Below the pieces are notes generated by a model that saw only the letters and a program-made list of their open reading frames with translations, ran no database searches and had not been told where the DNA came from. The position numbers and the translations under genes were made by a program. A DNA stretch of 64,000 nt from Halalkalicoccus jeotgali B3 (GTDB lineage Archaea; Halobacteriota; Halobacteria; Halobacteriales; Halalkalicoccaceae): assembly GCF_000196895.1 (NCBI RefSeq), contig NC_014297.1, positions 868,001-932,000 on the forward strand, written 5' to 3'. Each line of letters starts with the position of its first letter. Within the stretch, counting starts at the first letter, position 1. Positions 38,777-45,227 of this stretch are shown piece by piece.

Positions 38777-38849
38777 GGGCCGGTGGGGTAGCTTGGTATC
38801 CTTCGGCCTTCGGGTGGCCGTAACCTCAGTTCGAATCTGAGCCGGCCCA
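38777..38849 (+). tRNA. tRNA-Pro (anticodon CGG)
   Basis: 73 bases, no intron, no encoded CCA. The acceptor stem GGGCCGG pairs with CCGGCCC and the discriminator is A38849. The anticodon arm is CGGCC-TTCGGGT-GGCCG, so the loop reads TT-CGG-GT and the anticodon is CGG, reading CCG. The T arm is CTCAG-TTCGAAT-CTGAG, ideal. It is just downstream of trmY. A near copy of the 3' end lies 150 bases downstream. Confidence 0.95.
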
Positions 38850-38857
38850 CTATTCGT

Positions 38858-40829: not shown

Positions 40830-42287
40830 ATGAGCGAGATCTTCGAGGCCCGCGACTGGGACGCCGCCGGGCGGATCGGCCGGCTCTCGGTCCCGCGTTC
40901 GGGCATCACCGTCGAGACGCCCACCATCATGCCCGTCGTCAACCCCCACATCCAGACGATCCCCCCACGGGAACTCGCCGAGCGCTTCGGCGCACAGATC
41001 CTCATCACGAATTCGTACATCCTTCACGGCAGCGACGACCTGCGCGAGGCGGCCCTCTCGCGGGGGCTCCACGACCTGCTCGATTTCCCCGGCGCGGTTA
41101 TGACCGATTCGGGCTCCTTCCAACTCGCCGAATACGGCGAGATCGACGTTACGAGCGAGGAAATTCTCGCATTCCAACGGGAGATCGGCTCGGACATCGC
41201 GACCCCGGTCGACATCCCGACGGCACCCGATACCGAGCGCGAGGCCGCCGAGATCGAGCTCGGAACCACCCAAGAGCGCCTCGATGCGGCCGCCGAGTTC
41301 GATGCGGGGGAAATGCTCGTTTCGGCGCCTGTCCAGGGCTCGACCTACCCTGACCTCCGGGAGGCGGCGGGCGACCACGCCGCGGGGACGGGACTCGACG
41401 TCTTTCCGGTGGGGGCGGTCGTCCCGTTGATGAACGACTACCGGTACGGCGAGATGATCGACGCCGTCGTGGCCGCCAAACGCGGGCTGGGGCCGGCCGC
41501 CCCGGTCCACCTCTTCGGCGCGGGCCACCCCATGATGTTCGCGCTGGCGGTCGCGGCGGGCTGTGACCTGTTCGATTCGGCGGCCTACGCGATATACGCG
41601 CGCGACGGACGATACCTCACGGCTCGGGGAACGGAGCATCTGGAGGAGCTCGAGTACTTCCCGTGTTCGTGTCCCGTCTGCGCCGAGTACACCCCCGCGG
41701 AGGTCAGGGACGGGGACACTGAGCGCCTGCTTTCGGAGCACAACCTCCACGTCACCTTCGCGGAGATACGGCGGATCAAGCACGCGATCCGCGAGGGGAG
41801 TTTGCTCGAACTCGTCGAGACCCGCGCCCGCGGGCATCCGGCGATGCTCGACGGCTACCGGGCCCTGCTCGCCCATTCCGAACAGCTCGAACGCACCGAC
41901 CCCGCCTCGAAGTCGACGTTCTTCTACCTCTCGGGCGAGAGCGCCTCCCGGCCCGAGGTACTGCGCCACCACCGCCGACTCGAACGACTCTCGGTTCCTG
42001 ACTCGCTGTTGCTCGCCGACGGCTCCGTCGACGGGATCGAGGCCGATGAGGTCTGGGACGTTCGCCCACCCTTCGGTCCCGTCCCGCCGGAACTCTCGGA
42101 GACTTACCCCGTGAACGCCGAACTCCCCGACCGACTCGACGAGGAGGCCTACGCAGCGGCCGCACGGGGGATCGAGCGGCTGGCCGAGGCGAACCCCGAC
42201 TGCGAGATCGCGCTGGCGACTGCGGGCTGGCCCGACGCAGCGCTCGCGGCCCTGCCCAAACATACCAAGTGCATATTAATCTCCTAG
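40830..42287 (+). CDS. tgtA: Archaeal tRNA-guanine transglycosylase (position 15)
   Basis: Exchanges G15 of tRNA for preQ0, the first step to archaeosine. 485 aa: TGT core with [20 protein letters not shown], the substrate-binding [13 protein letters not shown], a preQ0-pocket [13 protein letters not shown], and zinc ligands CSCPVC about residue 280. C-terminal part has the extra archaeal domains. The last residues [12 protein letters not shown] coincide with a drop in GC content, so the native end may have been replaced by the AT-rich insertion that follows. Confidence 0.95.
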
Positions 42288-42378
42288 CAAGTTCACGACA
42301 TGTAGGTCCCTGTTGGAGGGCTGTTTTAGAAACCATACAGATACGATTATTCCATTTCTACCAATGATGCCCACAAGA

Positions 42379-42391
42379 TACATATATAAAT
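42379..42391 (+). promoter_or_regulatory. TATA box of the halocin-like gene
   Basis: TACATATATAAAT lies about 24-27 bases before GTG 42408, so the transcript would start close to this codon. The word GGGAG just before the GTG could serve as a ribosome site if the transcript starts earlier. The 120-base gap from 42288 to here is AT-rich and holds no gene; TGTAGGTCCCTGTTGGAGGG near 42301 resembles no feature I can name. Confidence 0.6.
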
Positions 42392-42407
42392 CAAGGGAGT
42401 GTATGTT

Positions 42408-43103
42408 GTGAATGAAAAACAACAAAATCGGCGATCTGTATTAAAATCAGCTGCGATAGGAATTAGTGCTGCAGGAAGCCTCCCTATACTGGGCGTACAG
42501 AAAGGCAAAGCCTCTCCTCAAACAGACTCCGAACGATCGGGCAATGACTCAGAGATGAGTCACGAGGTCGTTGACGAAGGCGATGAGTACCACATCGTTG
42601 CGGTTACGAAAGACGACGAAACAGAATATTATCGAGTAGACAAAAACACGGGTGCTGTCAGAGCCGTCTCAAGTGGTGGCATAAGCACGATGGGACACAA
42701 TGAGCTTATTTCCCGCTCCGATGTGCAGGTGAGACAATTTGGTTCCTGTGGCGGACACCTCTATCGAAATCACTACTACGTAGCTCTCTCGATCGAACTC
42801 GGCGAAACGTGGGACAGCATCACGGGAGGATCACTTGAGGCAGGAATTTGTGCGGTTCTTGGTGCCAAAGGCGGCATGGCTAGTGCTGCAGCTGGTGGCA
42901 TCGGGTGCTTCGTAATCGGCCGCCTCTTTCTTGACCACATTAATCCGTCCGGTAGTACCGGAACATGGGGAGCGTGGGACTGTCACCGTGGCTATTTAAA
43001 TTACGAAAACATCTGCCACGGAGTGACTAGCCAATACAGCGCAGGGCGATCGCAAGTCCCTTCATTGAAACTTGTTCCCGGCGTGCACTTCGAAGCGTTA
43101 TAA
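42408..43103 (+). CDS. Tat-exported Gly/Cys-rich protein (halocin-like candidate)
   Basis: 231 aa from GTG 42408 (GTG 42399 adds three residues). A Tat signal is clear: R8-R9-S-V-L-K followed by AAIGISAAGSLPILG, with a likely cut near A35. A charged pro-like region (about 36-110) precedes a C-terminal region with five cysteines (C114, C148, C167, C192, C203) and a Gly/Ala-rich hydrophobic stretch (about 142-173). This shape resembles halocin C8 precursors and hydrophobic bacteriocins, but no close match is recalled. The next gene, a membrane protein three bases away, would be the immunity partner. AT-rich codon use unlike its neighbours suggests transfer. Confidence 0.65.
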   Translation: MNEKQQNRRSVLKSAAIGISAAGSLPILGVQKGKASPQTDSERSGNDSEMSHEVVDEGDEYHIVAVTKDDETEYYRVDKNTGAVRAVSSGGISTMGHNELISRSDVQVRQFGSCGGHLYRNHYYVALSIELGETWDSITGGSLEAGICAVLGAKGGMASAAAGGIGCFVIGRLFLDHINPSGSTGTWGAWDCHRGYLNYENICHGVTSQYSAGRSQVPSLKLVPGVHFEAL

Positions 43104-43106
43104 CCA

Positions 43107-43409
43107 ATGAAACGGAGCGTAATCTTTCTCTGTACTATCGTTACCGTTTTGGCGGCCTACGGATGGCTTTCGACCGGGGCCAGCGTTCATGTCTTTCCGG
43201 CGATAGCCGGTATCGCTATGGCTCTCTCTGTCGCAGGTGTCGAATACACCTACCGGGGGATGCTTTCACAGAAGCTCACGGGAGCCGGGATCATCGTACT
43301 AATGCTGGTGCTTTTCACCGTATTCGATAACGGCGACAGTATCTTCTTCGCATTCGTCACCGCAGCAGTACTGTCGGTTTCTGTCTGCGTGCTATATCTT
43401 CTCGATTGA
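43107..43409 (+). CDS. Small four-helix membrane protein (immunity candidate)
   Basis: 100 aa, mostly hydrophobic: helices near 4-20, 26-44, 56-73 and 76-98. It starts three bases after the stop of the exported protein, so it is co-transcribed. Small polytopic proteins of this size protect producers of membrane-active peptides in many bacteriocin systems; that role is inferred here from context only. Other options are a processing or export helper. Lower GC than its flanks. Confidence 0.6.
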   Translation: MKRSVIFLCTIVTVLAAYGWLSTGASVHVFPAIAGIAMALSVAGVEYTYRGMLSQKLTGAGIIVLMLVLFTVFDNGDSIFFAFVTAAVLSVSVCVLYLLD

Positions 43410-43469
43410 CTCGGTTCGCTTGACTGGGGCCAAACTCCCTATCGATACTCTCTTTCGCGACACTCTCCG

Positions 43470-45227
43470 ATGACCCGTATGACCGAATACTTCGAAGTTC
43501 ACGGGCGCGACGGGGCCGCCCGGATCGGCGAACTACGCCTCGCCGACCCCCTCACGACGCCGGCGCTCGCGGACGATCACGTCGAGGACGCCGGGAGCCT
43601 CTGGGCCGCCGAGCGCGACCTGCCCGAGGGCCGCGACGACCGTGTGACGATCCTCCCCCATCGGGCGTTCCCGAGCGGCACCGCAGAAGAGGTCGAGGAC
43701 GCCTTCACCGTCGAGCATCCCGACGTCGAGTACCCGAGCGGGGCGGTCGTCTCGCCCGACACCGCCGGCGATTTCGGCGCGGACGCCTACGTCCTCTCGA
43801 CCGCACAGGGGAGCGTCGGCCACGCCAGCGCGCTCCGGGACGAGATCATCGAAACCAGACGGGCGATCCCCGCCGACACCGCACTCTATCTCTCCGGCGT
43901 CGCGACACCCCGAAACGCCGCGCTGCTGGCCTATCTCGGCATCGACCTCCTCGATTCGCACAAGGCGGTCGTGAAAGGCACGCAAGGGAAGTACCTCACG
44001 AGCGACGGCGAGCGGTTCCTCGAGGACCTCGAGGAGCTGCCGTGTGCCTGCTCGGCCTGTCAGCGCCCGATAGAGGCGTTCACCCGCGAGGACTGTGCCG
44101 AACACAACGAGAACGCCCTCCGTGCTGAGCTCGCGACCGTGCGCGAGCGGATCCGCGCGGGCCGGCTGCGCGATTACGTCGAGGGCCAGGCCCGCCACGC
44201 ACCGTGGCTGACCTCCCTCTTTCGGGAATTCGACGACGAGTGGGGATATCTGGAGGAACGGACCCCGATCTACCGGACCAGCGAGATCAGCGCGACGACC
44301 GACGACACCCTCCGGCGGGTCGAGATCCAGCGCTTTGCCGACCGGGTCACATCGAGCTATCGGAACCGGTTTGACAACCCGCTCGTCCTCGTGCCCTGCT
44401 CGGCCACGAAACCCTACAGCGAGTCCCAGAGCCACGGCCAGTTCCACGACGCGATCCAGTATCGCGCCCATCTGGTCTCGATGACCTCGCCCATCGGGGT
44501 CGTCCCTCAGGAGCTCGAAACCACCTACCCGGCCCAGCACTACGACACCGCCGTCACCGGGCGCTGGACCGAAACCGAGATCGCCTTCGTCGCCCGGGTG
44601 CTCCGCCGGTATCTCGAACGCAACGAGTACCCGAGAGTCATCGCCCACCTTCCCGAGGACTACCGCGAGATCATCGAGCGCGTCGAGCCCCACATCGACG
44701 CTGAGATCGAGTACACCGTCGAGGATCACCCCACCACGACGGACTCGATCGCGAACCTCATGCGGACGCTCGACGGCGAGCTCAAGTACGGCAAGCGCGA
44801 GCGCCAGCATAACACCGTAAAGGCCATCGCGGACTACCAGTTCGGCGAGGGCGCGGGCGAGGAACTCTTCCCCGATCTCTCTATTCAGAGCCGGTACCCG
44901 AAGTTCCGCGCGCATACGAGCGACGGCGAGCAACTCGCGGCGATGGTCCCCCAGTACGGAACCCTCGCGCTGACGCTTGCGGGGGCGCGGCGGTGGCTCG
45001 ACAGCGACGCCTCCACCAAACGCGTCGCAATCGACGGGTTCGTTCCCCACGGGAACGTCCTCGCGCCGGGCGTGCTGAACGCCGACCCGGAGATCCGGAC
45101 CGGCGACGAGGTCGTCGTCGAGGGCCCGAAGGCGTTCGCCGTCGGACGCGCGGAGATGTTCGGCCGCGAGATGGCCGAAAGCACCCGCGGGGTTGCGGTC
45201 GACGTCCGCCACGTCGAGGAGCGGTAG
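43470..45227 (+). CDS. arcS: Archaeosine synthase ArcS
   Basis: Acts after TgtA to convert preQ0-15 in tRNA to archaeosine; in the lysine-transfer model it attaches lysine to preQ0. 585 aa: TGT-like N-part that lacks the full active site, a CACSACQRPIEAF zinc motif, then the core motif VPCSATKPYSESQSH (C310, K314) and a C-terminal PUA domain (VAIDGFVPHGNVLAPGVLNAD). The neighbour tgtA makes the substrate; the AT-rich cassette between them is an insertion. Confidence 0.94.
   Translation: MTRMTEYFEVHGRDGAARIGELRLADPLTTPALADDHVEDAGSLWAAERDLPEGRDDRVTILPHRAFPSGTAEEVEDAFTVEHPDVEYPSGAVVSPDTAGDFGADAYVLSTAQGSVGHASALRDEIIETRRAIPADTALYLSGVATPRNAALLAYLGIDLLDSHKAVVKGTQGKYLTSDGERFLEDLEELPCACSACQRPIEAFTREDCAEHNENALRAELATVRERIRAGRLRDYVEGQARHAPWLTSLFREFDDEWGYLEERTPIYRTSEISATTDDTLRRVEIQRFADRVTSSYRNRFDNPLVLVPCSATKPYSESQSHGQFHDAIQYRAHLVSMTSPIGVVPQELETTYPAQHYDTAVTGRWTETEIAFVARVLRRYLERNEYPRVIAHLPEDYREIIERVEPHIDAEIEYTVEDHPTTTDSIANLMRTLDGELKYGKRERQHNTVKAIADYQFGEGAGEELFPDLSIQSRYPKFRAHTSDGEQLAAMVPQYGTLALTLAGARRWLDSDASTKRVAIDGFVPHGNVLAPGVLNADPEIRTGDEVVVEGPKAFAVGRAEMFGREMAESTRGVAVDVRHVEER

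Follow-up and report, generated by a model that had tools for sequence, protein, structure and literature searches.

Closest described systems

Haloarchaea widely kill one another, yet to our knowledge the halocin genes identified to date are few, and immunity has rarely been traced to a gene of its own. The plan of the SdpC/SdpI system is that of an exported protein with an internal hydrophobic segment accompanied by a membrane partner. Among the haloarchaeal antimicrobials themselves, the precursors of halocin C8 are proteins of ~270-310 aa with a Tat signal and a hydrophobic, glycine-rich region near the C-terminus, and halocin H4 (halH4, HFX_5264) is secreted and tied to cell-surface pinholes. 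Immunity to halocin C8 is reported as a single-gene property (Sun et al. 2005, cited in PMC12893001). In Haloferax mediterranei, HmHapP (HFX_0892) is a secreted precursor with a two-helix segment which kills other haloarchaea, the active part being the N-terminal 45 aa as released by halolysin (PMC12893001). Finally, in the Cdz system of Caulobacter, glycine-zipper proteins, which are thought to permeabilise the membrane, do the killing, and protection comes from a small membrane protein (PMC5380434).

The locus described here, from Halalkalicoccus jeotgali B3, consists of two genes, A and B, of which A encodes a Tat-exported protein and B a small membrane protein. It resembles the halocin C8 precursors in its haloarchaeal origin, its Tat signal and its hydrophobic glycine-rich region, and several divergent halocin C8 members likewise have a small membrane ORF close behind the precursor; A is, however, accompanied by a dedicated gene, in contrast to the reported single-gene immunity of halocin C8. 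HmHapP shows that a helical segment can act as an effector, as is proposed for A, and halocin H4 is likewise a secreted product, both likenesses being by description. With Cdz the locus shares the plan of an exported toxin and a small membrane immunity protein (in the case of A and B, candidates for these roles), but no test indicated relatedness: CdzC/D are proteins of 84-86 aa which leave by type I secretion, whereas A is a Tat substrate of ~231 aa with a beta domain, and no type I secretion genes lie beside A, where the neighbours are tgtA and arcS. The reading favoured here, to which we attach a probability of roughly 0.6, is that A and B are a halocin-like membrane-targeting toxin and its immunity protein, carried on a small mobile cassette. 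It is preferred because of the pairing of the two genes, the changes of partner, the broken A genes with intact partners, the mobility of the cassette and the predicted fold of A.

Location and composition of the cassette

The cassette fills the gap from 42288 to 43469 that separates tgtA and arcS in the window, by which is meant the whole 64-kb stretch of DNA that was analysed. The features of the region are as follows.

40830–42287, + strand: tgtA, archaeosine tRNA-guanine transglycosylase (TIGR00432, 1.3e-183)
42384–42394, + strand: TATA-box-like CATATATAAAT, directly 5' of A (read in the sequence)
42408–43103, + strand: gene A, Tat-exported 231-aa protein, candidate membrane-targeting toxin (relatives, predicted fold)
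42426–42515, + strand: twin-arginine signal region of A, RRSVLK... to about GKASPQ (sequence pattern, family conservation)
42822–42938, + strand: predicted glycine-rich hydrophobic helical hairpin of A, residues ~142-180, with C151 and C170 (AlphaFold, hydropathy, cysteine co-occurrence)
43107–43409, + strand: gene B, membrane protein of 100 aa with four helices, candidate for immunity (hydropathy, conserved position)
43470–45227, + strand: arcS, archaeosine synthase alpha subunit, right flank (NF040592, 2.3e-250)

The identities of the two flanking genes rest on NCBIfam equivalog models. An AT-rich cassette between GC-rich neighbours was what the preliminary description of this DNA had reported, and the composition bears this out, since GC is 0.51-0.52 in A and B against 0.68 in tgtA and arcS, and third-position GC is 0.48-0.60 against 0.86-0.88. 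The 1-kb block of lowest GC in the window is 42001-43000 and there is no second dip to such low values elsewhere in the 64 kb, such that the cassette is the sole strongly AT-rich island. The TATA-like element ahead of A suggests that the cassette may carry its own promoter. Two further observations concern the surroundings. A near-perfect 14-nt inverted repeat links the end of A (43082-43095) with the start of arcS (43490-43503), near the 3' junction of the insert, and is probably due to chance; and at 38777-38850 a tRNA-Pro (cgg) is called by ARAGORN, although no Rfam tRNA match attains the gathering score there.

The exported protein, its family and its predicted fold

The reading frame of A ends at 43103 and could begin as early as a GTG at 42399, giving 234 aa, or at a second GTG at 42408, giving 231 aa. 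The start was set at 42408 because Halalkalicoccus paucihalophilus, the nearest named relative, carries ATG at the same place; residue numbers nevertheless follow the 234-aa reading. By eye, the N-terminus, RRSVLKSAAIGISAAGSL...GKASPQ, has the twin-arginine pattern, a generic Tat model scores the window copy weakly (E 0.99), and the two arginines with the following leucine (RR-x-x-L) are kept across the family. There are five cysteines, at 117, 151, 170, 195 and 206, all in the C-terminal half. In these respects, and in the glycine/alanine-rich stretch, hydropathy and alignment show the earlier account of A to have been correct.

Relatives of A are spread across the Halobacteriales, and a profile built from ten of them extends the set. 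When the profile included the Tat signal it drew in many unrelated Tat proteins, a fault that was cured by restricting the profile to the C-terminal domain; matches to this version come from 34 of 342 genomes, spread over 17 of 81 genera. An alignment of 25 members was compared with Pfam, NCBIfam, PADLOC, PHROGs and PDB sequences without a convincing match, just Tat models and weak glycine-zipper models appearing, and neither A nor B matches a characterised toxin or immunity family. The close match to an unrelated enzyme or surface protein that would have told against the preliminary description did not appear, and membership of A in a known enzyme or surface family was rejected, there being no match in Pfam, NCBIfam or PDB sequences or by Foldseek. 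No publication on the family was found in the open-access literature. From these searches, A is a member of an undescribed haloarchaeal protein family. A distant branch of it (L138, L140, L142) comprises proteins of ~330 aa with long GxxxG-rich hairpins and partners of 74-92 aa, and the A genes of this branch have weak matches to E492-microcin and glycine-zipper models.

The AlphaFold2 model of A, computed from the 25-row alignment, has strands at 53-90 and 104-134, helices at 143-157 and 160-180, and strands again at 187-227, with pLDDT mostly between 75 and 91 in 10-residue blocks from residue 51 and dips to 55-60 near 91-100 and 161-170. The model of L050, a distant relative at about 20-25% identity, has the same order of elements, namely beta-beta-[helical hairpin]-beta-beta with the strands enclosing the hairpin, although the model was obtained from a re-ordered alignment sharing many rows with that of the window protein and is, to that extent, not fully independent. 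The hairpin is also the most hydrophobic part of mature A. A toxin-like structure had been anticipated for the C-terminal region, and a toxin-like hydrophobic hairpin is indeed predicted in these two members. The more specific proposal of a small cysteine-rich toxin peptide lying behind an immunity domain does not hold, as the hairpin is embedded in a predicted beta domain, and among the relatives there are several with one cysteine only. Foldseek against the PDB gave nothing below E = 0.28 for either model, and a structure search of a viral library gave nothing significant.

The pattern of cysteines bears on how the hairpin may be stabilised. C151 and C170, one in each helix, occur together in nine rows of the 25-row alignment, C170 being found without C151 solely in L048 and L049, where a cysteine lies three residues earlier; C195 and C206 occur together in five rows and are jointly absent from the other 20. 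Each pair is gained or lost as a unit (p about 2e-5 each, uncorrected for relatedness). This paired loss and gain suggests a C151-C170 disulfide inside the hairpin, and it is likely, on the same alignment, that A contains two disulfides of which one is inside the hairpin. Cys117, which had been considered as part of a Cys-His-Asp catalytic triad, is missing from L011, L012 and L013, and that idea was dropped. Glycine-zipper models (PF13441, PF05433, PF13488) give weak matches to some relatives, the best at 3.6e-5, and none to the window copy; the likeness is that of a hydrophobic GxxxG-rich hairpin, and the match is driven by composition, partial, and confined to the hairpin as opposed to the whole protein. 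The preliminary description had also pointed to circular bacteriocins, but no circular-bacteriocin model matched A, and this candidate was rejected: such peptides are of about 60-70 aa and are cyclised head to tail, whereas mature A is of ~195 aa with a predicted beta-rich fold and internal hairpin, and the cassette contains no maturation genes.

The membrane partner

B begins three bases past the stop codon of A and has four hydrophobic segments, as had been described. A and B are both real genes, judging from the homologues of A across the Halobacteriales and from dN/dS values well below 1 in both. In pairs of relatives these values are 0.14-0.32 for A and 0.36-0.49 for B, B diverging the faster in every pair compared, which indicates that both are maintained proteins with B changing faster; the ranges come from pairs other than that of the window and H. 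paucihalophilus, where the changes are too few to be informative.

That the second gene should recur beside the first in other haloarchaea was the central expectation of the preliminary description, and a partner that never co-occurred would have spoken against it. The latter outcome was not observed. In 24 of the 27 family loci the gene adjoining A encodes a small membrane protein, and the two-gene unit recurs across haloarchaea. Under a stricter rule, by which the partner is an ORF of 50-150 aa with >=2 hydrophobic segments that starts <=150 bases downstream on the same strand, it is found at 21 of 27 A loci against 4 of 32 Tat-exported controls (p = 7e-7), a value that is indicative only, as are the other p-values, since the A-family loci are phylogenetically non-independent and the control set (n = 32, after removal of two loci belonging to the A family) is modest. 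At three loci (L005, L007, L010) the small membrane ORF adjoins A on the opposite strand. Distant members found later have a partner in five of eight cases, one of the partner-positive genes being that of L016 and the partnerless L141 being the gene of L061. No recognisable B stands beside A at L053, L054, L061, L137 or L139.

One of the four partner-positive controls, L016, was later recognised as an A-family member. The other three, L075 (1501-2301), L086 and L091 (in the latter two the main ORF, - strand), are unrelated proteins that carry cysteines and are exported by Tat, each followed directly by a gene for a small membrane protein; in NCBIfam they have just weak Tat-related matches. They look like further halocin candidates with the same layout.

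The partners themselves are hardly alignable across the A-family loci. Among 293 genomes, the window B is found only in the two that carry A, and the four-helix B is common to the window and L004. Window A and the A of L005 are related at 2.7e-42, whereas between their B proteins no similarity can be detected, and the orientation differs. An adjacent, dedicated partner gene is present, as in bacteriocin/immunity cassettes, and makes B a candidate for an immunity role.

Transfer of the cassette and broken copies of A

The cassette occurs in two of the ten genomes of its taxonomic family, those of H. jeotgali B3 and H. paucihalophilus. Between them, A and B are 98% identical in DNA and the short intergenic stretches 95.5-100%, whereas tgtA and arcS are about 87% identical. 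Five other genomes of the family (G194, G133, G256, G406, G407) have tgtA directly beside arcS with no cassette, in the comparison of tgtA-arcS spacing that the preliminary description had called for; in G225, G405 and G200 arcS is not immediately after tgtA. The greater identity of the cassette over its flanks, together with the empty sites, supports the horizontal acquisition that had been proposed. The 5' junction lies at ~42260, inside the last codons of tgtA, with the GC drop at 42270; the last ~8 codons differ from those of the relatives, which read LPGSIELV or LSERIELV there, and from this comparison they are derived from the insert side of the junction. No flanking direct repeats were found around the cassette, and transposition was set aside on this ground; recent exchange of the cassette by recombination is the simplest reading of these alignments.

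In three genomes A is broken beside an intact partner. In H. paucihalophilus a one-base deletion throws A out of frame near residue 92 while B is intact, and in L044 there is a premature TAG with the membrane partner intact, both of which could be draft-assembly errors; what remains of A in L010 is a C-terminal stretch, next to an intact partner. On the face of these sequences, the pattern looks like the loss of a costly toxin with retention of immunity. The cassette is polymorphic and mobile and its putative effector is sometimes lost while the partner is kept, as in bacteriocin/immunity cassettes.

These observations bear on a different account of the pair, in which A is a non-toxic surface or secreted protein and B serves to anchor it in the membrane, helps its export or takes part in its processing. 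The strict neighbourhood of the two genes is what any obligate complex of two proteins would show, A is a folded Tat substrate, and five members lack an adjacent B, so that B may be dispensable. An anchor or helper should co-evolve with A, yet B is replaced by an unrelated or oppositely oriented gene while A remains recognisable; patchiness across genomes, recent transfer and broken A with intact B suit conflict genes better. A non-toxic complex is, on balance, an unlikely explanation.

Improbable, too, is a surface defence or superinfection exclusion system, in which a surface-located A and a membrane-borne B would block virus adsorption or DNA entry. It would suit a cassette that is small, AT-rich, mobile and patchy with a polymorphic membrane protein, but PADLOC gave no match above noise, no defence genes neighbour the tgtA-arcS site, and searches of viral contigs and phage records gave no close copy, nor was there a convincing PHROG. 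These last results were also the reason for setting aside a viral origin of the cassette. Plasmid copies were likewise absent from the collection searched, which itself seems to be without haloarchaeal plasmids.

Proposed mode of action

On the toxin and immunity reading, A would fold in the cytoplasm before its export through the Tat pathway. Once mature (~195 aa), it would consist of a beta region at the N-terminus and, at the C-terminus, a beta domain presenting the glycine-rich hydrophobic hairpin, the latter probably braced by the C151-C170 disulfide. The hairpin would insert in the membrane of a sensitive haloarchaeon and cause leakage, and B, in the membrane of the producer, would block its action.

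The same anatomy, an exported protein with an internal hydrophobic segment and a membrane partner, would serve a cannibalism or self-limiting signal of the SdpC/SdpI type, with A acting mainly on sister cells at entry into stationary phase and B acting both as immunity protein and as sensor; the cassette, however, is without a regulator gene and the likeness is by anatomy alone, making this a rather remote prospect.

If A is instead a toxin that acts on other haloarchaea, it adds a toxin fold. We put at about even the chance that A is one member of a large and so far undescribed superfamily of Tat-exported toxins in haloarchaea. Their fold, a beta domain around a hydrophobic helical hairpin, would be absent from solved structures, and they would occur in about 10% of haloarchaeal genomes, each with its own fast-changing, at times swapped, membrane immunity protein. 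With a defined partner and a presence in about one in ten haloarchaeal genomes, the family makes halocin genes, and the survival of their producers, directly testable. It would also provide a mining rule, namely a Tat-exported protein with an internal hydrophobic hairpin and an adjacent small membrane protein.

Relation to halocin C8

A relation of A to halocin C8, as put forward in the preliminary description, is not borne out. That A is a divergent halocin C8 member, with toxin and immunity both derived from a single precursor, is scarcely credible, for while A has the same type of signal, a similar precursor size and a hydrophobic glycine-rich C-terminal half, none of the 25 aligned members of its family matches TIGR04449 (the C-terminal halocin C8 domain, with ten conserved cysteines) or PF22862 (the N-terminal halocin 8-like domain), the ten-cysteine pattern is absent, and profile-profile comparison of the two families with hhalign aligns only the Tat signal, with a C-domain probability of 11%. 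Homology was ruled out by these two domain models and the profile-profile comparison, A having no sequence relation to halocin C8 outside the signal. The halocin C8 homologues taken as controls do match TIGR04449, up to 7.7e-16, and mostly PF22862 too. They were obtained with what we take to be the mature halocin C8 sequence, which matches one genome ORF (L094, genome G004) at 100% and 17 further halocin C8-like ORFs at lower identity.

Membrane ORFs stand behind these precursors as well. At 8 of the 18 halocin C8-like loci (L100, L104, L105, L106, L107, L108, L109, L111) a membrane protein of 58-125 aa is encoded <=100 bases downstream of the precursor, a feature that might be taken to favour kinship with A; it means that the layout is common to the halocin C8-like and A families, and that the mining rule catches halocin C8-like loci too. 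These ORFs could be unrecognised immunity genes. Genome G004, which holds the halocin C8 gene of L094, also holds the truncated A copy of L010 with its intact partner.
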